Assembly: GCF_016428905.1 (NCBI RefSeq)
Contig: NZ_JAELTQ010000019.1
Coordinates: 1 to 52,011, forward strand
DNA length: 52,011 nt
Direction: 5' to 3'
Source of the DNA: Dyella sp. ASV24
GTDB lineage: Bacteria > Pseudomonadota > Gammaproteobacteria > Xanthomonadales > Rhodanobacteraceae
Part shown: positions 7,322 to 22,061 of the stretch, piece by piece
How the letters are laid out: the number at the start of each line of letters is the position of its first letter
Numbering within the stretch: position 1 is the first letter of the stretch
The notes under the pieces: generated by a model
Database searches by the model: none
The model's input: the letters and a program-made list of their open reading frames with translations, nothing else
What the model was told of the DNA's origin: nothing
Program-made: the position numbers and the translations under genes

Positions 7322-9082
7322 ATGCTGCGTCTATGCTGCATTGGGGTAGGTCTTTTGCTGGCGGGTCAGGCGCTGGCTGACGGTTGCAGCCTGAAGGACT
7401 ACGGCACCTTGCCCGTGGAGATGGTGGGAAACCGCGCCACGACCACGGTAAAGATCAACGGGAAAGACACCCGTTTCATCATCGATACCGGCGCCTTCTT
7501 CAACATCATGTCGAAAGCCAATGCAGAATCGCTTGGGCTTTCGCTGCAACCCGCACCCTTCGGCTATCGCGTCAGTGGTATCGGCGGATCTGCGGATATC
7601 CAGCAGGCGCATGTCAAGGAATTCGGCATACTCGATACCACGCTCAAGAACGTCGATTTTATCGTGGGTGGCACCGATGCGGGCGATGGGTTGCTTGGCG
7701 CCAATCTGCTTGATATCGCCGATCTGGAGCTCGACCTGGCGCACGGAAAGATCACGCTGTTCAAAGTGGATGGATGTGAGCACAGCTCGCTGGCGTATTG
7801 GGCGAAGGATGGCAAGTACAACCTCGCCGATCTCGATCCGTCCGAAAACCAGTACGACAGACGCACCTTTGTCAGTGTGACCATTAACGGCAAAAAAGTG
7901 AGGGCGGTGCTCGATTCGGGTGCCATGGCCACCGTGCTGAGTCGTGACGCCGCCGAGCGGGCCGGCATCGATTTGAATGGGCCGGATGCGAAAGCGGGCA
8001 GCAGGAGTATCGGCGTGGGTTCCAAGCCGGTGAAGACGTGGACCGTGAAGGTGGACGCGTTCACCGTAGGCACGGAGACCATACAGCACAGCCAAATGCA
8101 GGTGATTGACGGAAGGATGGGCGGCGACACTGAGATGTTGCTCGGCGTCGACTTTCTGCTTGCCCATCATATGTTCATCGCCAACAGCAAGAAGAAGGTC
8201 TACTTCACCTACAACGGTGGGCGCGTGTTTACGTTTGCCGCCGCTTCAGAAGATGGCGACAAGCCCAGCGCGGATGCGAATGCTGGCCAGGTGGGCACCG
8301 CCACCAAAAACGCGAGCGATTACGCGTTGTCGGGCCAGGCGCATCTGTCTCGCGGCGAGTTCAATGCCGCGGTGAACGACCTGGATGAGGCGATCCGTCT
8401 GGCGCCGGATCAAGCGGCCTACTATGTCGCTCGCGCGAGAGCGCATCAGGCGAGCAAGCAGCGGGATGCGGCGCTTGCCGATCTGGACAAAGCGCTGAGT
8501 CTGGATCCAAAGAACGCTGATGCGTTGGTGCTGCGCGCGGGGCTTAGGATCATGCGGAAGGATCGCGCAGGCGCGACCAGTGACGCGATGGCGGCCAGCG
8601 AGTTGGCGCCGGCTGGCTCCACGCTGGCGCGTGCGATTGCCGGTCTCTACATCGAGCTCGACCAGCCCGCTGCTGCATTGCCATTGCTTGACGACTGGAT
8701 TCGCTTGCACAAAGACGATGCCATGCTCGGTTCCGCACTCAATGAGCGCTGCTGGGCACGAAGCCTGAGCAATCAGGTGCTCGACGACGCGCTGAAGGAT
8801 TGCCGCAAGGCGATACGGCGTGATGGTGAGAATCCGGCCTATCTGGACAGTCTCGGCTTGGTCGAGTTGCGACTCGGTCAGTATCCGGAGTCGATCAGCG
8901 CATACGAGAAGGCGGTCGCCCAGCACCCCGATTCCGCATGGTCGCGCTACGGTCTTGGCCTGGCCAAGGTCCGCAGCGGTCAGATGGATGCAGGCCGTGC
9001 GGATCTGGCCCAAGCGCACACGCTCGATCCGGAGATCGAGACGCGAGCGGCCAAGTATGGTTTGACTGCGCCAAATCCGTAG
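7322..9082 (+). CDS. Secreted double retropepsin-like aspartic protease with TPR repeats
   Basis: 586 residues. A signal peptide (LRLCCIGVGLLLAGQALA) precedes two retropepsin-like domains: the first active-site triad is FIIDTGA (Asp55), the second AVLDSGA (Asp198), each followed by a GLLGANLL/MLLGVDFL-type flap-to-core segment. From about residue 325 to the end it has some six tetratricopeptide repeats (for example YYVARARAHQASKQRDAALADL). A pair of such domains in one chain could form one active site in cis, as in pepsins, whereas viral retropepsins dimerise. The TPR part suggests substrate docking in the periplasm. Similar double-domain proteins occur at 20751 and 29546. Proteolytic activity is inferred. 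Confidence 0.85.
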   Translation: MLRLCCIGVGLLLAGQALADGCSLKDYGTLPVEMVGNRATTTVKINGKDTRFIIDTGAFFNIMSKANAESLGLSLQPAPFGYRVSGIGGSADIQQAHVKEFGILDTTLKNVDFIVGGTDAGDGLLGANLLDIADLELDLAHGKITLFKVDGCEHSSLAYWAKDGKYNLADLDPSENQYDRRTFVSVTINGKKVRAVLDSGAMATVLSRDAAERAGIDLNGPDAKAGSRSIGVGSKPVKTWTVKVDAFTVGTETIQHSQMQVIDGRMGGDTEMLLGVDFLLAHHMFIANSKKKVYFTYNGGRVFTFAAASEDGDKPSADANAGQVGTATKNASDYALSGQAHLSRGEFNAAVNDLDEAIRLAPDQAAYYVARARAHQASKQRDAALADLDKALSLDPKNADALVLRAGLRIMRKDRAGATSDAMAASELAPAGSTLARAIAGLYIELDQPAAALPLLDDWIRLHKDDAMLGSALNERCWARSLSNQVLDDALKDCRKAIRRDGENPAYLDSLGLVELRLGQYPESISAYEKAVAQHPDSAWSRYGLGLAKVRSGQMDAGRADLAQAHTLDPEIETRAAKYGLTAPNP

Positions 9083-11291: not shown

Positions 11292-11327
11292 AGCTGCCTA
11301 TATTGTTACATAGGTTCCAATGTATAT
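11284..11327. promoter_or_regulatory. Divergent promoter with nested inverted repeats (MarR operator candidate)
   Basis: An inner repeat CCTAT, eight bases, ATAGG (11297-11314) sits inside an outer repeat ATATACAT (11284-11291) / ATGTATAT (11320-11327). The outer arms overlap the MarR start codon on one side and the possible upstream ATG of the monooxygenase on the other. Size and position fit MarR dimer operators. Confidence 0.5.
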
Positions 11328-15891: not shown

Positions 15892-17160
15892 ATGGACGGA
15901 CACCTGTTTCGCCTTGAGGCAGTGGACGCGAGGCGTCGCTCCCATTTTGGAAACGTACGACTGGCGACACCTCTCTCTCATTCGGTCTGGGCGATTGTGG
16001 CGGCCGGCACGCTGATCATCGTATGCGCCTGGCTCGTGATGGGCCATTACACGCGAAGGGAGCACGTCAATGGAGCGCTCGTTCCCAAGGCAGGCCTGAT
16101 CAATCTGAGCGCACGTGGTGCTGGAACCGTTACCTCCATCCAGGTAGCTGATGGCAGCGCGGTGCACGCAGGTGACCCCATTTTGGTTCTGTCTGGTGAA
16201 TTGAGCAGCGTTGCGCTCGGCGACACCGATGCTCACGTGAGTGATGAGTTGCGGGGTCAGGCACAAAAGTTGGACGAGGACGCCGCAAACGCTTTACGCA
16301 TAGCAGGCCAACAAGAGCACGACCTTCAAGAACAGCAACGATGGTTGAAAGGCCAGCTGGCAGAGATCGATCAAGCATTGGCGATACAACGACGCCAGGT
16401 GGAGAGTGATAACAACTTGCTGGAGCACATCCGGCCTCTTGTGAATCAGGGTTACGTTTCCAAGTTGCAGATACAGGATCAGGAAACGCAGGCGACGAAC
16501 GCTGAGGTTCAGGTCAAAGCGCTTGCGCGCGAACGCGATGAACTCACGCAGCAATTCAGCAGCGTGGGCTATCAGTTGCAACAGCTGCCACTCGCCACCC
16601 TTGCAAAGGTCAATGATCTGCATCGTCAACACGCTCAGGTCTCGCAGCAGCTTGCACAGAACGAGGTGGCGCGCGAAATGGTCATTCGTGCTCCCAAGGA
16701 CGGCGTGGTTTCGGCGCTACTGGTCAAACCGGGTCAAACGGTGTCGGCGGGTCAGGGTGTGGCGACGATTGTTCCGGCTGCATCCCCATTGGAAGCCGAG
16801 CTCTGGGTGCCGAGTTCCGCCATAGGATTTGTTCATCGCGGCGTCAAAGTGACCTTGCACTACCAAGCGTTTCCCTACCAGAAGTTTGGTGTGCAGCACG
16901 GCGTTGTCGATTCCGTCTCTCCCAGTGCACTGACGCCGGCCGAGATGACGTCGTTGCTGGGGCAGGCGCCGCCGGCCCAGGACATGTATCGCGTCCATGT
17001 GGCGATAGACAGCCAGACAGTGCGTGCTTACGGGAGTCCGATCGTGCTTAAGCCAGGCATGGCCATTGAGGCCAGTCTTCTCCTGGATCGTCGCCGGCTT
17101 GTCGAGTGGATCTTCGAACCACTCTATGGCATGCGCCAGCGCGATGGAGGTATCTGGTGA
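15892..17160 (+). CDS. HlyD-family membrane fusion protein of a peptide exporter
   Basis: 422 residues from the ATG at 15892 (a TTG lies four codons upstream). Order: short cytoplasmic N-terminus, one membrane helix (about 31-51), lipoyl half (GAGTVTSIQVADGSAVHAGDPILVL), long periplasmic coiled coil (about 115-255), second lipoyl half (APKDGVVSALLVKPGQTVSAGQ) and beta-barrel domain. This is the adaptor of bacteriocin/colicin V-type ABC export systems, bridging the inner-membrane ABC protein and an outer-membrane TolC-like channel, which is not encoded here. Its stop overlaps the ATG of the ABC gene (TGATG). A complete, normal-length member. Confidence 0.92.
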   Translation: MDGHLFRLEAVDARRRSHFGNVRLATPLSHSVWAIVAAGTLIIVCAWLVMGHYTRREHVNGALVPKAGLINLSARGAGTVTSIQVADGSAVHAGDPILVLSGELSSVALGDTDAHVSDELRGQAQKLDEDAANALRIAGQQEHDLQEQQRWLKGQLAEIDQALAIQRRQVESDNNLLEHIRPLVNQGYVSKLQIQDQETQATNAEVQVKALARERDELTQQFSSVGYQLQQLPLATLAKVNDLHRQHAQVSQQLAQNEVAREMVIRAPKDGVVSALLVKPGQTVSAGQGVATIVPAASPLEAELWVPSSAIGFVHRGVKVTLHYQAFPYQKFGVQHGVVDSVSPSALTPAEMTSLLGQAPPAQDMYRVHVAIDSQTVRAYGSPIVLKPGMAIEASLLLDRRRLVEWIFEPLYGMRQRDGGIW

Positions 17161-19334
17161 TGCGGGCTCGTGAGCACGAACAGCGTATCCAGGATGCGGA
17201 TCTCGCAATAAAAAGCAGCGGCGCCAAGCTGTCCTTCAGTCGAAGGCGGCGGCTACCGGTAATGCGCCAAACGGAAGCCGCGGAGTGCGGACTGGCTTGC
17301 CTGGCGATGATCGCGTCCTATCACGGCCATCATGCCGATCTCGCTGCGATGCGACGAAAGTTCGCTATTTCCATGAAAGGCGTCACGCTTGCTCGTCTCA
17401 TCGAGATTGCGCATGCGTTGGGTCTGTCGAGCCGCCCGCTGAAATTGGAGCTGTCAGAGTTGCATCAGCTTCAGCTTCCGTGCCTGCTTCATTGGAACTT
17501 GAACCACTTTGTTGTCCTGAAAGAGGTGCGCAAGGGGCGCGTCATCATCCATGATCCTGCACTCGGCGAGCGGCGCTTGTCGATCGAGGACGTGAGCCAT
17601 CATTTCACTGGTATCGCCGTTGAACTGATGCCCGGATCCGACTTCAAACGTCAGGAGGCGGCGCCAAACCTGCCTCTTCGCGCATTGACGGGATCCGTTC
17701 ATGGCCTCACCCGCAGCTTGGTTCAAGTGTTCTCGTTGGCGCTTGTGTTGGAACTGTTCGCTCTGCTGACACCTCAGCTGACCCAGGCAGTAGTCGATCA
17801 GGTGATTGCCGACGGCGACCACGAGCTGCTGGCCATGGTGGGTATCAGCTTCATCGTGTTGCTCATGTTGCAGACAACGTTCACCGCGATCCGTACATGG
17901 ACCGTGATGTGGCTGGGAAGCCACTTCAACCTGAGCTGGACCGGAAACGTCTTCCAGCATCTGGTGCGATTGCCGCAAGCCTATTTTCTAAAGCGTCACC
18001 TGGGTGATGTCGTTTCACGCTTCAATGCCATTACCACAATCCAGCAAACGCTGACCACGCAATTCATTGGGGCCATCCTGGATGGGCTCATGGCCACGCT
18101 GACACTGGTTGCGCTCTACATCTATAGCCCGCTTCTGGCCACGATCACATTGCTGGCGTTATTTCTCTATGGAGTTCTTCGCCTCGCCTACTTTCGGCAT
18201 TTCCGAGAGGCGACGATGGATCAGATCGAGTCAGGCGCCAAGCAACAGAGTTGCTTCATCGAGTCTGTGCGAGGCATCCAGACGCTTCGCCTGTACAACC
18301 AGGAGTCGATGCAGACCTCGAGATACTTGAATGCGACAGCAAACGCCATCAATACCGGCATCCATGTGCAGAAGCTGGGAATCGCATTCGGGACATTGAA
18401 CAGCCTGACATCTGGCGTACAGCGCATCGCCGTACTGTGGATCGGTGCATGGGTCGCTCTACGCGGGTCCTTTAGTACTGGCATGCTCATCGCATTCACG
18501 TCTTACGCAGATCAGTTCACCTCGCGAGCCGCAAGCGCCATTGATTACCTGGTGCAACTTCGTCTTCTTAGGCTGCAGGGGGATCGTTTGGCGGACATCG
18601 TCATGAGCGACGTGGAGCGCCATGCCGAGGGTATCTACGTAGGCCCTTTGCCGAATCCATCGATACAGTTTCGCGATGTGAGCTTTCGCTACGCAGACGG
18701 TGAGCCGTGGTTGCTCGACAAGTGCAGCTTCGAGATCCGGCCAGGGGAAGCCGTTGCTATCGTGGGCCCTTCGGGCTGCGGTAAAAGCACGTTGATGCGC
18801 CTCATGCTGGGTCTCCTTGATCCGCAGGAGGGATCGATAAGCGTAGGGGGTATTGACCTCCGACATCTTGGAAAAAGCACGTTCCGTAAAATGGCCGGTA
18901 GTGTCATGCAGGATGACAAGCTCTTTGCGGGAACCATCGCGGACAACATCAGCTTCTTTGATGAGTCAGCCGTTCCGGAGGATATCGATCGCGCCGCGAA
19001 GCTTGCACAACTCCATGAGGACATCGTCGCTATGCCAATGGGCTATCACACCCTGGTAGGCGACATGGGCTCCACCTTGTCGGGTGGTCAACAGCAGCGT
19101 CTTTGCCTTGCGCGCGCGCTCTATCGTGATCCTTCTTTCTACTTCCTGGACGAAGCCACCAGCCACCTCGATTCGAAAAGAGAGATGGCTATCGTATCCG
19201 TATTCAGGGAAACCAAAGCCACGCGTGTGCTGATTGCGCATCGGTCTGAAGCCATCAAGAGCGCCGACCGAATTCTGATGATGGACCACGGCCGGCTAGT
19301 AGAAACCAGCCTGGCATCGTACTTCGGCGAGTGA
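17160..19334 (+). CDS. Peptidase-containing (C39) ABC exporter for double-glycine peptides
   Basis: 724 residues. N-terminal C39 cysteine protease: Gln37 and Cys43 in RQTEAAECGLACLAMI, His116 in LNHFVVL, Asp132 in IIHDPALGERRLS, so all catalytic residues are present. Six membrane helices span about 185-460. The ATPase domain has Walker A GPSGCGKST, signature LSGGQQQR, Walker B FYFLDEAT and the switch His in LIAHRSE. Such proteins cut the leader after Gly-Gly and export the core peptide. The start ATG overlaps the HlyD stop. The natural substrate is the precursor at 20286. The signature motif is intact, so it should be active. Confidence 0.95.
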   Translation: MRAREHEQRIQDADLAIKSSGAKLSFSRRRRLPVMRQTEAAECGLACLAMIASYHGHHADLAAMRRKFAISMKGVTLARLIEIAHALGLSSRPLKLELSELHQLQLPCLLHWNLNHFVVLKEVRKGRVIIHDPALGERRLSIEDVSHHFTGIAVELMPGSDFKRQEAAPNLPLRALTGSVHGLTRSLVQVFSLALVLELFALLTPQLTQAVVDQVIADGDHELLAMVGISFIVLLMLQTTFTAIRTWTVMWLGSHFNLSWTGNVFQHLVRLPQAYFLKRHLGDVVSRFNAITTIQQTLTTQFIGAILDGLMATLTLVALYIYSPLLATITLLALFLYGVLRLAYFRHFREATMDQIESGAKQQSCFIESVRGIQTLRLYNQESMQTSRYLNATANAINTGIHVQKLGIAFGTLNSLTSGVQRIAVLWIGAWVALRGSFSTGMLIAFTSYADQFTSRAASAIDYLVQLRLLRLQGDRLADIVMSDVERHAEGIYVGPLPNPSIQFRDVSFRYADGEPWLLDKCSFEIRPGEAVAIVGPSGCGKSTLMRLMLGLLDPQEGSISVGGIDLRHLGKSTFRKMAGSVMQDDKLFAGTIADNISFFDESAVPEDIDRAAKLAQLHEDIVAMPMGYHTLVGDMGSTLSGGQQQRLCLARALYRDPSFYFLDEATSHLDSKREMAIVSVFRETKATRVLIAHRSEAIKSADRILMMDHGRLVETSLASYFGE

Positions 19335-19340
19335 ACCATC

Positions 19341-20195
19341 ATGCGCATCGCCAAGGCGAACTTTGACCTTCCCCGTCATCATCACTTCTCCGCTCGGACG
19401 CTGAGAGATGGTCGCGATGCTGCGGACCGACTGTCCCGATTACCTCGGGTGCCGGAAACCGTATGGCGCGAATTGACGACGGCGCTTTGCTTGACGTCGG
19501 CATCATTTGAACTGCCTCCTTCAAAACTCGGAGCACGGGTTGACGCCAAGTTGGCGTCGATGCGCGACTATTTGTCGATTGCCATGTGGGAGCGATATGG
19601 CAATGCGTCGTACAGATACACGCGAATGTCGGATGAGATAGCGTCTTTCGATGCATGCAAAGTTCAGCTTATCGGGTCGCTTTCAAGAAGTTCGGGCCCT
19701 TGGGAGTTCAACGCCGCGCTTCACGATCTCCATAGGCACCTTTACAAAAAGGACGTTGGCTTTCGGCAGACATCGGTGCATATCGCGACTATTGACGTGG
19801 AAGATCAGGTGCACTTCCCGCCGCACGAATGCATCGAGGTCCGGCTCGCCCAGATCCAGAAGAACCTGATCGTCAACGCAGGGCATCCACTTCTGGCGGC
19901 AACCGTTGCATACGTTTCGCTCATCGAGATCCACCCTTTCGAGGACGGTAATGGGCGTCTTTCAAGGGTCCTGACGAATGCGCTGATGCATGGTGGAGAT
20001 AAGTCCGGGGAGGCTTACCTGCCGCTCAAGGAATTGAACCTCCTTACACGAGGAAGCTTTTATCTCAACTACATGCGCGCTGTGGTCTATGGCGATTGGC
20101 GGCCGCTGTTGGAGTTCTTTATCAGTGCGATCCAACTGTATGAGCTTGTCGTAGAGGCGGTCGCGGAGACAGATCGCGTTGCGATGCTGGCGTAG
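19341..20195 (+). CDS. Fic-domain protein within the peptide-export locus
   Basis: 284 residues, starting six bases after the ABC stop, so almost certainly co-transcribed. The Fic core motif is complete: His198 in IHPFEDGNGRLSR (H-x-F-x-D-G-N-G-R-x-x-R), with a flap region VHFPPHECIEVRLAQ (about 157-171). Fic enzymes usually transfer AMP, sometimes other nucleotides or phosphocholine, from a nucleotide cofactor to a Ser/Thr/Tyr hydroxyl. N-terminally, Ser53-Ala-Ser-Phe-Glu57-Leu58 resembles the inhibitory [S/T]xxxE[G/N] helix, but with Leu where Gly/Asn is usual. A Fic protein between a C39 exporter and its peptide is unusual. Candidate roles: modifying the peptide, producer immunity, or regulating the exporter. 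Confidence 0.9.
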   Translation: MRIAKANFDLPRHHHFSARTLRDGRDAADRLSRLPRVPETVWRELTTALCLTSASFELPPSKLGARVDAKLASMRDYLSIAMWERYGNASYRYTRMSDEIASFDACKVQLIGSLSRSSGPWEFNAALHDLHRHLYKKDVGFRQTSVHIATIDVEDQVHFPPHECIEVRLAQIQKNLIVNAGHPLLAATVAYVSLIEIHPFEDGNGRLSRVLTNALMHGGDKSGEAYLPLKELNLLTRGSFYLNYMRAVVYGDWRPLLEFFISAIQLYELVVEAVAETDRVAMLA

Positions 20196-20285
20196 CCACC
20201 TTCGTACCAGTCGTACTCGAGAGAATCCCTATAGCCGGGGGGGTAATCCCGGTCAACCCGTAACCTGACAAAAAGGAAGTTGTAT

Positions 20286-20588
20286 ATGCGAGCACTTTCA
20301 TTGCGTGAGTTGGAACTCATTTCGGGCGGCGACGGCGGCAACGGAACGACTTCGACCTCGAACAATAACCCGGACCCGAACCCGGGTGGCCAGTCCAATC
20401 CCAGCGGCGATAACGGCCCGGGCCTTAGCGGCGGCGGCAACGTGAGTGGCGGTTCCGGCCAGTCGCCGAGCTGGGGTGCGGGCATCGGCTATACCTTCGG
20501 TAACGGTGTGACTGTCGGTGGCACCATCGGTGGTACGGGTGGCAACATCAATGGTGGTGGCGTGACCGTGACGATTCCGATCCACTAA
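20286..20588 (+). CDS. Double-glycine-leader, Gly/Asn/Ser-rich exported peptide precursor
   Basis: 100 residues with a strong AAGGAAG seven bases before the ATG. The leader (residues 1-15) reads MRALSLRELELISGG, a textbook C39-cleaved leader (LSxxELExIxGG), so cleavage is expected after Gly15. The predicted 85-residue core has no cysteine. Its first half is Asn/Pro/Ser/Gly-rich and its second half alternates Gly with beta-branched residues (YTFGNGVTVGGTIGG, then GGGVTVTIPIH), suggesting a glycine-rich, beta-prone or membrane-active peptide like large class II microcins. Substrate of the ABC/HlyD pair upstream. Many Ser/Thr and one Tyr in the core could accept a Fic-transferred group. No known bacteriocin was recognised. 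Confidence 0.85.
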   Translation: MRALSLRELELISGGDGGNGTTSTSNNNPDPNPGGQSNPSGDNGPGLSGGGNVSGGSGQSPSWGAGIGYTFGNGVTVGGTIGGTGGNINGGGVTVTIPIH

Positions 20589-20637
20589 TCGTGGATCGTT
20601 GGCACGAGTGAAACAGGGGCTCATGTTTCTTTGTGCC
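20578..20637 (+). promoter_or_regulatory. Nested hairpins at the end of the precursor gene
   Basis: Arms CGATCCAC / GTGGATCG with the stop codon TAA in the five-base loop (20578-20598), followed by a second structure with GGCAC...GTGCC outside GAAACA...TGTTTC (20601-20637). They may stabilise the precursor mRNA or partially terminate before the protease-like gene. Confidence 0.45.
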
Positions 20638-20692
20638 CGCTACTCGCGTCAGTCTGTCTCTTGTCATGGAATGACCTGACAGGCCGCGCACC

Positions 20693-20727
20693 GGTGCGTC
20701 TTGCGTGACGGCGGGACGCACCCTTTT
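20693..20727 (+). terminator. Terminator-like hairpin between precursor and retropepsin gene
   Basis: GGTGCGTC, a 14-nt loop, GACGCACC, then CTTTT. It ends only 23 bp before the next ATG, so the downstream gene would depend on read-through or translation-coupled control. Confidence 0.5.
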
Positions 20728-20750
20728 CCTATCCTCAGGAAAGTTATTTC

Positions 20751-22061
20751 ATGGTTCGTCGATATGCTTGCAGGACAAGTCAGCCATCCCGTCTGTTGGC
20801 GAGTATGGCTGCGCTTCTTATTTCTCGCAGCGTAATAGCCGCTCATGCGGCGGACGCGGCGCACCTTATTGATCTCAAGGACAACGCGGGAATCGTAGCC
20901 GCTGTAGCGACAGGTGATCGGGCGAAGCTTGAGACTGTCGCGGGTCACTCCACATCACCCTTCGAGCAGCAATTTGCCCAGGCTGCGATGTATCGCGTCG
21001 ACTTCGATCTTGCCGCGGCTGATGGCGCCTTCAGCAGTTGCGAGAAAGCATTGACGGATCCAGACAATCCCAATCGCACGCTGTGCAGCCTGATGCTGTT
21101 GGGGGATGCATTTATTGAACGTCGCATGGATCAGTGGTTGGAGAAGCTCAGGTCCATCCATGACACCTACGATCCGGTGATAGAGAAGCATTACCCTGGA
21201 CGTGGCCTGCAATTGCGGGGTGCGGAAGGTGTCAGTGTTATTTCGGATGTGCCTTTTGGCGAAAGTGACGTGATCATGGCGCGTCCCGGGTTCGACATAC
21301 CTTACGTGAGCGATCGGGATCGCCAGGGTATCGAGAAGCGCATCGAGCCGTTAGTACAGGTAACCATCGGAGGTCAGACGATCCATGCCCTGATCGATAC
21401 CGGTTCGAGCTACGACATCATTTCTCCAGCGTTAGCAAATCGCTTGAAGATTCGGCCAAGCCTGCGTTACGACAAGCTCACGGATGGCAATAACCAAACC
21501 GTGTCAGCCACCATGGGGACGGCGCCGACTATCGTGATGGGTGAGGCGACCATCCGCCGATGGCCCGTGACCGTGGCGGAATCACCGTTTCCCATCATTA
21601 TCGGCTTACCACTCCTGAGCAAAATGGGTGGTGTCGTCATGACTGGAAAGAAGATCACGATAGGGGGATCGCTCGTCGCACCTGCTTGCCAGCAACCGAT
21701 GCGATTTGCCTCCAATCTAGACGGAAGCGTCACAAAACTTATCACCCGTATCACGGTTGACGGCAAGAGCAACGACGCTACCGTCGACACGGGCGGCGCC
21801 TTCACGGTGCTCAATGGAGTGGATACGAAGACCATGTCGGATAGCGATTCGACGGAGCGAGTGGTGTTTGCCGGCGGAATCAGCGAGAAGCGCATCGGTA
21901 AGCGCCATGGCTTGATTTCCTTTGGCGGGCCGGAGAAGCCGATGGACTACATCGTCATGTCGGACGCTTTTCACCTGACGCCCTACCAGGTGGGTTCTGG
22001 GGTACTGGGCGATCTTTCGTTGGTGATGGATTTCACTCACCGCCGACTTTGTGTGCAGTGA
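20751..22061 (+). CDS. Exported double retropepsin-like aspartic protease beside the peptide precursor
   Basis: 436 residues with a signal-like N-terminus (LASMAALLISRSVIAAHA). A helical region covers about 40-150. The first retropepsin-like domain has HALIDTGSSYDIIS (Asp216) and FPIIIGLPLLSKMGG; a second, weaker domain has NDATVDTGGAFTVL. Both DTG triads are intact. AGGAAAG lies seven bases before the ATG. Its place directly after the precursor suggests a link to the peptide, for instance periplasmic trimming, self-protection by degradation, or coincidence. The terminator-like hairpin upstream is the main argument against tight co-expression. Family assignment is good; role is inferred. Confidence 0.82.
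   Translation: MVRRYACRTSQPSRLLASMAALLISRSVIAAHAADAAHLIDLKDNAGIVAAVATGDRAKLETVAGHSTSPFEQQFAQAAMYRVDFDLAAADGAFSSCEKALTDPDNPNRTLCSLMLLGDAFIERRMDQWLEKLRSIHDTYDPVIEKHYPGRGLQLRGAEGVSVISDVPFGESDVIMARPGFDIPYVSDRDRQGIEKRIEPLVQVTIGGQTIHALIDTGSSYDIISPALANRLKIRPSLRYDKLTDGNNQTVSATMGTAPTIVMGEATIRRWPVTVAESPFPIIIGLPLLSKMGGVVMTGKKITIGGSLVAPACQQPMRFASNLDGSVTKLITRITVDGKSNDATVDTGGAFTVLNGVDTKTMSDSDSTERVVFAGGISEKRIGKRHGLISFGGPEKPMDYIVMSDAFHLTPYQVGSGVLGDLSLVMDFTHRRLCVQ

Follow-up and report, generated by a model that had tools for sequence, protein, structure and literature searches.

The closest described system is RaxX-RaxST-RaxA-RaxB of Xanthomonas oryzae, in which a peptide with a double-glycine (GG) leader is accompanied by a cytosolic hydroxyl-modifying enzyme, by RaxA and by RaxB, which cleaves the leader (PMC6637879). 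RaxX is a 60-residue peptide with a role in plant recognition and RaxST is a sulfotransferase (PMC6637879). Class II microcins and other GG-leader bacteriocins likewise share their leader form, and the families of their exporter and adaptor, with the locus described here; they differ in that many cargos of its relatives are larger, with what look like folded domains, and in that a Fic protein, a protease and transferases are added. Xanthomonas belongs to the same bacterial order as the genome from which the window, the whole stretch of 52,011 nucleotides that was analysed, was taken.

Reading frames and Pfam matches bore out the originally predicted gene order of HlyD, C39-ABC exporter, Fic, GG precursor and double aspartic protease on one strand (Table 1). 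The likely ATG of the ABC gene at 17160 overlaps the HlyD stop and the Fic gene begins 6 bases past the ABC stop, both as first described. A GG-leader product and type I secretion components are common to this locus and to RaxX-RaxSTAB; a Fic protein takes the place of the sulfotransferase, which some Fic loci also carry, and an aspartic protease is present, none being named in the part of the published account drawn upon here (PMC6637879). The genes of the locus belong to families other than sulfotransferases and the Stf0 profile had no match in the window. Chance assembly can be ruled out, because the same kinds of gene recur together in other genomes. The original prediction regarded the combination as undescribed, and literature searches in open-licence papers gave no description of it.

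Table 1. Features of the export locus in the window.
Feature	Position	Strand	Evidence and remarks
HlyD-type periplasmic adaptor	15892..17160	+	HlyD_3 4e-19, HlyD_D23 3.3e-13; frame open from TTG 15880 (ATG 15892)
C39-peptidase ABC exporter	17160..19334	+	Peptidase_C39 3.1e-37, ABC_membrane, ABC_tran; frame open from GTG 17106
Fic-domain protein, 284 aa	19341..20195	+	PF02661 6.5e-10; family tied to GG-cargo export loci
Fic active-site motif HPFEDGNGRLSR	19932..19967	+	Residues 198-209; direct reading
Precursor double-glycine leader MRALSLRELELISGG	20286..20330	+	
Mature exported protein (putative)	20331..20588	+	Gly/Asn/Pro/Ser-rich linker and short C-terminus, beta-strand-like by reading of sequence
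Terminator-like hairpin	20693..20722	+	Stem of 12 pairs followed by CTTTTCC; separates precursor from protease
Double retropepsin-like aspartic protease	20751..22061	+	gag-asp_proteas 2.9e-16; N-terminus signal-peptide-like

Judged from their families, the HlyD and C39-ABC proteins would cleave off the leader and carry the cargo out of the cell, in keeping with the export set first proposed. Residues C61, H134 and D150 of the exporter (numbered from GTG 17106), which we take to be the catalytic residues of the C39 peptidase, were invariant across seven aligned sequences. The small precursor beside the exporter (20286-20588) had no Pfam or NCBIfam match, and its double-glycine leader was confirmed. 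As a hairpin lies between them, precursor and protease may not simply share a transcript; terminator-like sites in the region numbered 4 against 6.6 expected, and the hairpin alone is weak evidence. The doubling of the retropepsin-like protein was upheld by DTG motifs at residues 216-218 (21396-21404) and 346-348 (21786-21794). Such DTG-bearing domains are shared with Clan AA aspartic proteases (TIGR02281, below its cut-off, and gag-asp_proteas), from which this protein differs in having both DTG sites on a single chain of secreted type, an N-terminal part outside any named family and a gene that often lies directly behind a GG cargo gene.

The Fic protein scored above the Pfam cut-off and retains the core motif HPFx(D/E)GNGRxxR intact, as predicted, with His198 encoded at 19932-19934; it has no GG leader of its own. 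H198, N204, G205, R206 and R209 were invariant across 15 aligned sequences, and members of its family keep the catalytic residues despite being only 16-26% identical to it. Most members carry the canonical HPFxDGNGRxxR-type motif, deviations being HALPNGNGR in locus L041 and HPYRDFNGR in L219. The best PDB profile matches were FICD (2.7e-17) and SoFic (3.4e-14), both AMP transferases. In comparison with these class II enzymes, which share the Fic domain, the family is shorter (255-320 aa) and is matched in the C-terminal core. The (S/T)xxxE(G/N) class II autoinhibitory pattern, scored by presence or absence irrespective of its distance from the catalytic His, is missing from the window's Fic and from 18 of 19 family members, whereas all 15 control Fic proteins contain it. 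Structure prediction from two sequences gave a pLDDT of 38.2, and a single-protein scan of genome contigs returned no Fic relative.

A neighbourhood census confirmed that the association of Fic with a C39 exporter recurs across two bacterial families. The Fic proteins concerned stand apart as a family of their own, encoded at 23 loci in two bacterial families of the window's order. The window's own bacterial family accounts for 15 of the loci, spread over 12 of 233 genomes, and the second for 8, in 8 of 297 genomes drawn from a larger group. The lowest-scoring members reached 115 and 125 bits and the next Fic proteins 83 and 79. The 23 loci are not 23 independent events, since they include related genomes (G303 and G343 are nearly alike) and broken copies of Fic (L043/L220, L047 and L215). 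A C39 exporter lay within about 10 kb at 16 of the 23, on the same strand as Fic in every case, and 20 had a C39 exporter, HlyD, protease or GG cargo nearby; three loci that came to light only later, through their Fic sequence and nothing else, all fitted the export setting. Fifteen control loci, fetched from 50 Fic proteins listed below the score gap, had neither C39 nor HlyD nor protease. The control count was based on these three genes because the GG-leader pattern yields false matches (e.g. at L231, L235 and positions 11320 and 28120 of the window). The difference in C39 exporters (16/23 against 0/15) gave a Fisher p of 2e-5, on rows that are not independent. Two kinds of exporter stand beside Fic, 54-59% and 31-37% identical to that of the window.

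The cargos are of several different types. In size, the small peptide first proposed agrees with the window's own precursor (100 aa) and with a 54 aa cargo at L044, a locus of Luteibacter yeojuensis that has GG cargo, Fic and exporter; many relatives instead encode GG-leader proteins of 140-260 aa that resemble folded enzymes or beta-rich domains rather than classic small microcins. Several cargos adjoin immunity-like periplasmic partners, and an endolysin-like or lysozyme-like cargo with a periplasmic partner occurs at 7 of the 23 Fic loci. All four matches to the type II cargo in 36 genomes were at Fic loci, and two PDB profile searches matched this cargo to endolysin 7q47 (E 0.001 and 0.0004). 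The three strong matches to the type I cargo in 23 genomes were also at Fic loci; its PDB profile search gave no match of use. Relatives of the type I toxin-immunity pair that lack the GG leader, three of them whole and two cut short by contig ends, have neither a C39 exporter nor Fic; their immunity genes, where these can be seen, are homologous. PDB profile searches also returned chance matches to Gly-rich linkers. No Pfam family was found for 8 of 10 locus proteins searched, the sulfotransferase being recognised, and the sole Pfam match of one lysozyme-like cargo was a chance one (0.14).

The protease pairs directly with GG cargos in eight loci, which is consistent with the proposal that it trims or destroys the peptide; at L037, L055 and L056 it is not directly behind a GG cargo. 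Since it is mostly paired with seemingly beta-rich cargo, it looks like a cargo-specific immunity or processing factor. Either the protease or the Fic protein of the window could have an immunity role for the putative antibacterial peptide.

At 11 of the 23 loci a second group-transfer gene abuts Fic, namely a DUF6932 nucleotidyltransferase in seven and a sulfotransferase in four, two of the latter (L215 and L220) adjoining broken Fic copies. DUF6932 is directly adjacent to Fic, on the same strand, in seven of the eight loci that have it; L225 and L226 are among the loci with such a partner. In the window itself a second transferase gene is missing. Because Fic loci supplied the sequences for the Stf0 and DUF6932 profiles, the absence of matches elsewhere is biased. 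Judged by these neighbouring transferases, the exported peptide may be post-translationally modified in the sense of a RiPP.

Most C39 loci lack Fic. Among 88 examined in the window's family (G077, G091 and G224 being left out), Fic was found within 8 kb at only 8 and within 10 kb at 10, one of these a broken copy; of 80 named C39 loci, one had it. At least 91 C39 exporters were found, with at most four candidates scored per genome, and contig ends shortened 19 of 80 C39 regions and 35 of 80 named loci, so that the absence of Fic is partly unseen. Persistence of exporter and peptide without Fic in relatives, which the original prediction had named as evidence against its proposal, was observed in part: L053 and L054, the judgeable exporters closest in sequence to that of the window, stand with a GG cargo and a protease and no Fic. 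Two related loci that lack Fic carry other nucleotidyltransferase and 2OG-oxygenase genes.

The recurrence of a close Fic family beside exported toxin-like proteins in related bacteria suggests that the enzyme tags these proteins ahead of export. The reading that we favour, tentatively and as a little short of an even chance, is that the locus serves to produce a double-glycine protein, most probably an antibacterial one, to modify it and to export it. The cytoplasmic Fic protein would be an enzyme dedicated to the GG cargo and would link a group, AMP being the likeliest, to one of the cargo's hydroxyls, either ahead of export or in its course, by analogy with the action of RaxST on RaxX; RaxX-RaxSTAB is a precedent (PMC6637879). 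HlyD and C39-ABC would cut off the leader and export the cargo. Gene content, recurrence, intact motifs and pairing patterns are observed here, and the substrate, chemistry and purpose of Fic are inferred. The modification would serve export, latency within the producer or activity outside, and the aspartic protease would act on this class of cargo in the periplasm, in degradative immunity or in processing.

Alternatively, Fic may modify a protein of the producer itself, for example the exporter or a housekeeping target, and so regulate secretion or shield the cell during toxin synthesis. We consider this unlikely: the absence of a GG leader from Fic and its occurrence with different cargo types would agree with it, as would the known Fic enzymes that AMPylate proteins of their own bacterium, such as topoisomerase IV (PMC7479194), but several cargos already have immunity-like periplasmic partners and Fic (16-26% identity to the window's protein) is far more divergent than the exporter (53-58%), unlike an enzyme with a conserved target. 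As to the exporter in particular, none is encoded in the 11.3 kb of L042, where a GG cargo and a periplasmic partner accompany Fic and the contig continues for 1.8 kb beyond it. Toxins of the Fic/Doc kind are known, and Fic as a toxin or addiction passenger that retains the cassette in the genome would accord with the missing autoinhibitory motif and the broken copies. This is improbable given the 20 loci in cargo, exporter or protease settings and the 11 that adjoin other transferases; moreover, in the window the ABC gene directly precedes Fic and the precursor is the next called gene, and therefore no small antitoxin gene is in the usual place.

It is slightly less probable still that the Fic fold serves another chemistry (for example transfer of phosphate, phosphocholine or UMP) or acts as a partner of the nucleotidyltransferase, perhaps in removing a group. 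The canonical motif, which the window's Fic shares with most of the family, and the AMP transferases as the best PDB matches speak against this, in spite of the close adjacency of DUF6932 and the two deviating motifs. Fic as a chance neighbour unlinked to export, to which the many C39 loci without Fic might point, is very improbable and already disfavoured by the comparison with control loci and by the three loci of the after-the-fact test.

If modification of the cargo by Fic is correct, Fic enzymes would take part in making exported bacterial weapons, and the RaxST principle of modification, cleavage and export would be widened from sulfate to nucleotides and folded toxins. Such loci would be a source of new modified proteins, and secreted aspartic proteases paired with one class of cargo would represent an unusual form of immunity. 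A broader generalisation, possible and rather doubtful, is that throughout the Lysobacterales (Xanthomonadales) dedicated Fic enzymes and partner nucleotidyltransferases or sulfotransferases decorate GG toxins of several unrelated folds in the cytoplasm prior to C39 export, with secreted double aspartic proteases as degradative immunity for beta-rich toxins, yielding exported antibacterial proteins that are nucleotidylated and form a new class.

No cargo residue was specific to Fic loci. Threonine after the double glycine was enriched at position 3 (10/18 against 9/45, p 0.013), position 5 (5/18 against 3/45, p 0.037) and position 6 (8/18 against 4/45, p 0.0027), weak post hoc differences among 12 positions tested on related sequences, with rows partly chosen by eye. 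A Thr-Pro motif in the linker was rejected as the Fic acceptor, as it is present in proteins without Fic too: the hydrophobic-Thr-Pro/Ala form occurs in L062, L121 and the GG-less L251, all without Fic, and also in L057, where the sole Fic, at a distance of 8.7 kb, is a broken copy.

All five genes of the original prediction (HlyD, C39-ABC exporter, Fic, double-glycine precursor and aspartic protease) were read from the sequence on the plus strand at their predicted positions. Pfam analysis of the locus identified HlyD_3, Peptidase_C39 with ABC_membrane and ABC_tran, Fic, and gag-asp_proteas/Asp_protease_2, with no Pfam match for the precursor. Residues C61, H134 and D150 of the C39 domain, which we take to be catalytic, were invariant across seven aligned exporters; the Fic carries HPFEDGNGRLSR, and the protease begins with a hydrophobic stretch and contains two DTG motifs. 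The terminator-like hairpin listed in the table could lower the level of protease. The GC content was 0.56-0.58 over 14-22 kb, against 0.61-0.64 in the 2 kb flanking each side, but says little since it was equally low at 32-36 kb.

As a single-protein query, the window Fic yielded matches in 21 of 233 genomes of its bacterial family, taken to be Rhodanobacteraceae (to which Luteibacter belongs), in a first search, several of them adjoining C39 exporters. A census profile built from 15 Fics recorded 15 loci in 12 of the 233 genomes (115-281 bits; next best 83). In a second family of the order Lysobacterales, formerly named Xanthomonadales, 8 of 297 genomes yielded eight loci, which scored 125-226 bits, with 79 bits for the best match below them. 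Matches in other families of the order did not exceed 72 bits (398 genomes of the order, earlier profile), and among 369 genomes across the class the window alone exceeded 81 bits. The Fic family forms one clade (support 1.000) against 15 control Fics. The controls are 387-420 amino acids long, and each has the class II pattern in the form SSQIEG or SSRMEG. Of 19 full-length family Fics, one contains a match to this pattern (SEAFEG, L219).

This distinct Fic family is recurrently associated with loci exporting proteins with a double-glycine (GG) leader, here termed cargos. When the neighbourhoods of all 23 Fic loci were fetched, 16 held a C39 exporter within about 10 kb, always on the Fic strand (the window, L036, L037, L038, L039, L040, L041, L044, L217, L218, L224, L225, L226, L227, genome G134 at 9.5 kb [L063/L214], and L220, a broken Fic copy at 8.7 kb). 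Loci L224-L226 were picked up by Fic sequence alone once the pattern was known; in all three, Fic is accompanied by C39-ABC, a GG cargo and a DUF6932-like gene. Among the remaining seven, several of which sit near contig ends, a GG cargo is present in L042 and L216, and the protease together with an HlyD piece in L047 and L219; the automatic test for C39, HlyD, protease or GG cargo was negative for L045, L046 and L215. Related periplasmic genes and a sulfotransferase are found in L046 and L215, with a cargo-like gene bearing an HEWYH motif in L046. None of 15 usual-type Fic loci had a C39, HlyD or protease match. The Fic family is thus largely confined to GG-export settings.

The converse does not hold. 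At least 91 C39 exporters occur in the window's family (E up to 1e-170), and of the 88 examined, eight had a Fic within 8 kb and ten within 10 kb, one a broken copy; among 80 named C39 loci Fic was present at one (L139, the same locus as L036). Fic is therefore a minority accessory of these exporters. The exporters closest to that of the window are L052 (64%, cut off by its contig end), L053 (63%) and L054 (62%). Both L053 and L054 retain exporter, cargo and protease without Fic, which is in part the situation that the original prediction named as counting against it.

The protease directly follows a GG cargo, at gaps of 19-163 bases, in nine pairs at eight loci (the window, L039, L053, L054, L057, L062, L214 and, twice, L217), where the upstream cargos read as beta-rich; in L037, L055 and L056 it does not. 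Most copies retain both catalytic motifs, the L039 protease having DTA at the first and that of L037 no clear DTG there. As the protease is present both with and without Fic, its partner is a class of cargo and not Fic itself.

Several kinds of GG protein occur at Fic loci. Type II cargos (L036, L044, L037, L063/L214) resemble endolysin 7q47 (E 0.0004 over 117 positions). Type I cargos (L040, L041, L042), with no database match, read as lysozyme-like from an FxESSxGT-type pattern. The L226 cargo matches DUF4329 below cut-off, and the C-terminal parts of those of the window, L039, L214, L216 and L217 appear beta-rich. Small signal-peptide proteins adjoin the type I cargos and the majority of the type II ones; they are homologous within each type and read as immunity proteins. 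We infer that the cargos are antibacterial toxins. At L248-L250, lysozyme-like toxin genes lacking a GG leader adjoin homologues of the periplasmic immunity-like proteins.

Fic accompanies different cargo types and two exporter kinds, and in L042 a cargo and immunity-like gene with no exporter in view. All four occurrences of the type II domain in 36 genomes of two genera, and all three strong occurrences of the type I domain in 23 genomes of one genus, are at Fic loci. The weaker type I relatives at L248-L250 lack Fic as well as a GG leader and a C39 exporter; L251 and L252 are pieces at contig ends. This contrast, from few loci, suggests a tie of Fic to the GG-leader route and not to the toxin domain.

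The most likely role of the putative Fic enzyme, tentatively and at somewhat less than an even chance, would be modification of the cargo before export. In L039, L216, L217, L224, L225, L226 and L227 the gene immediately next to Fic, and on its strand, is a DUF6932-like nucleotidyltransferase (in L040 one lies 4.9 kb away on the opposite strand), and sulfotransferase genes adjoin it in L046, L214, L215 and L220, giving an adjoining group-transfer gene at 11 of 23 loci. PF22014 was above cut-off in all six DUF6932-like proteins tested; the DUF6932 call in L225 and L227 rests on our own profile. In the related Fic-minus C39 loci L055 and L056 the cargo is followed by a nucleotidyltransferase (NTP_transf_2, cut-off 21 bits; scores 22.4 and 21.2) and a 2OG-Fe(II) oxygenase. 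A cargo-side slot with varying group-adding enzymes is what cargo tailoring would look like. The main rival, in which Fic acts on a self-target of the producer, is rather unlikely. Against cargo modification, no acceptor residue was found in the cargo, position-wise threonine enrichment being weak and post hoc. In its favour there is a parallel in RaxX, which is sulfated at Tyr-41 by RaxST and relieved of its GG leader by RaxB before secretion (PMC6637879). No description of Fic combined with GG-cargo export was found in the open-licence published papers searched, and within those sources the association is undescribed, as the original prediction had supposed.

Positions of the hairpin and of further features in the window and related loci
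Sequence	Position	Feature
Window	20693-20722	Terminator-like hairpin, after the precursor and before the protease
Window	7322-9082	586 aa protein, two gag-asp_proteas-type domains then TPR repeats; distantly like the locus protease (62.5 bits, own protease profile)
L044	7698-8483	Two GG products, a 54 aa peptide and a 186 aa protein, almost alike in leader and linker
L046	2871-3848	Cargo-like gene: internal leader-like stretch ending YGTNSG, Gly-rich linker, HEWYH; adjoins Stf0 and Fic
L055	4826-6672	Nucleotidyltransferase and 2OG-Fe(II) oxygenase with DUF6817, after GG cargo
L056	11379-13225	As L055
L053	11043-15174	One GG cargo and exporter, then three protease genes in a row
G017 contig 1 (L072-L074)	about 2.58, 2.61, 2.63 Mb	C39 exporter in three copies that score identically
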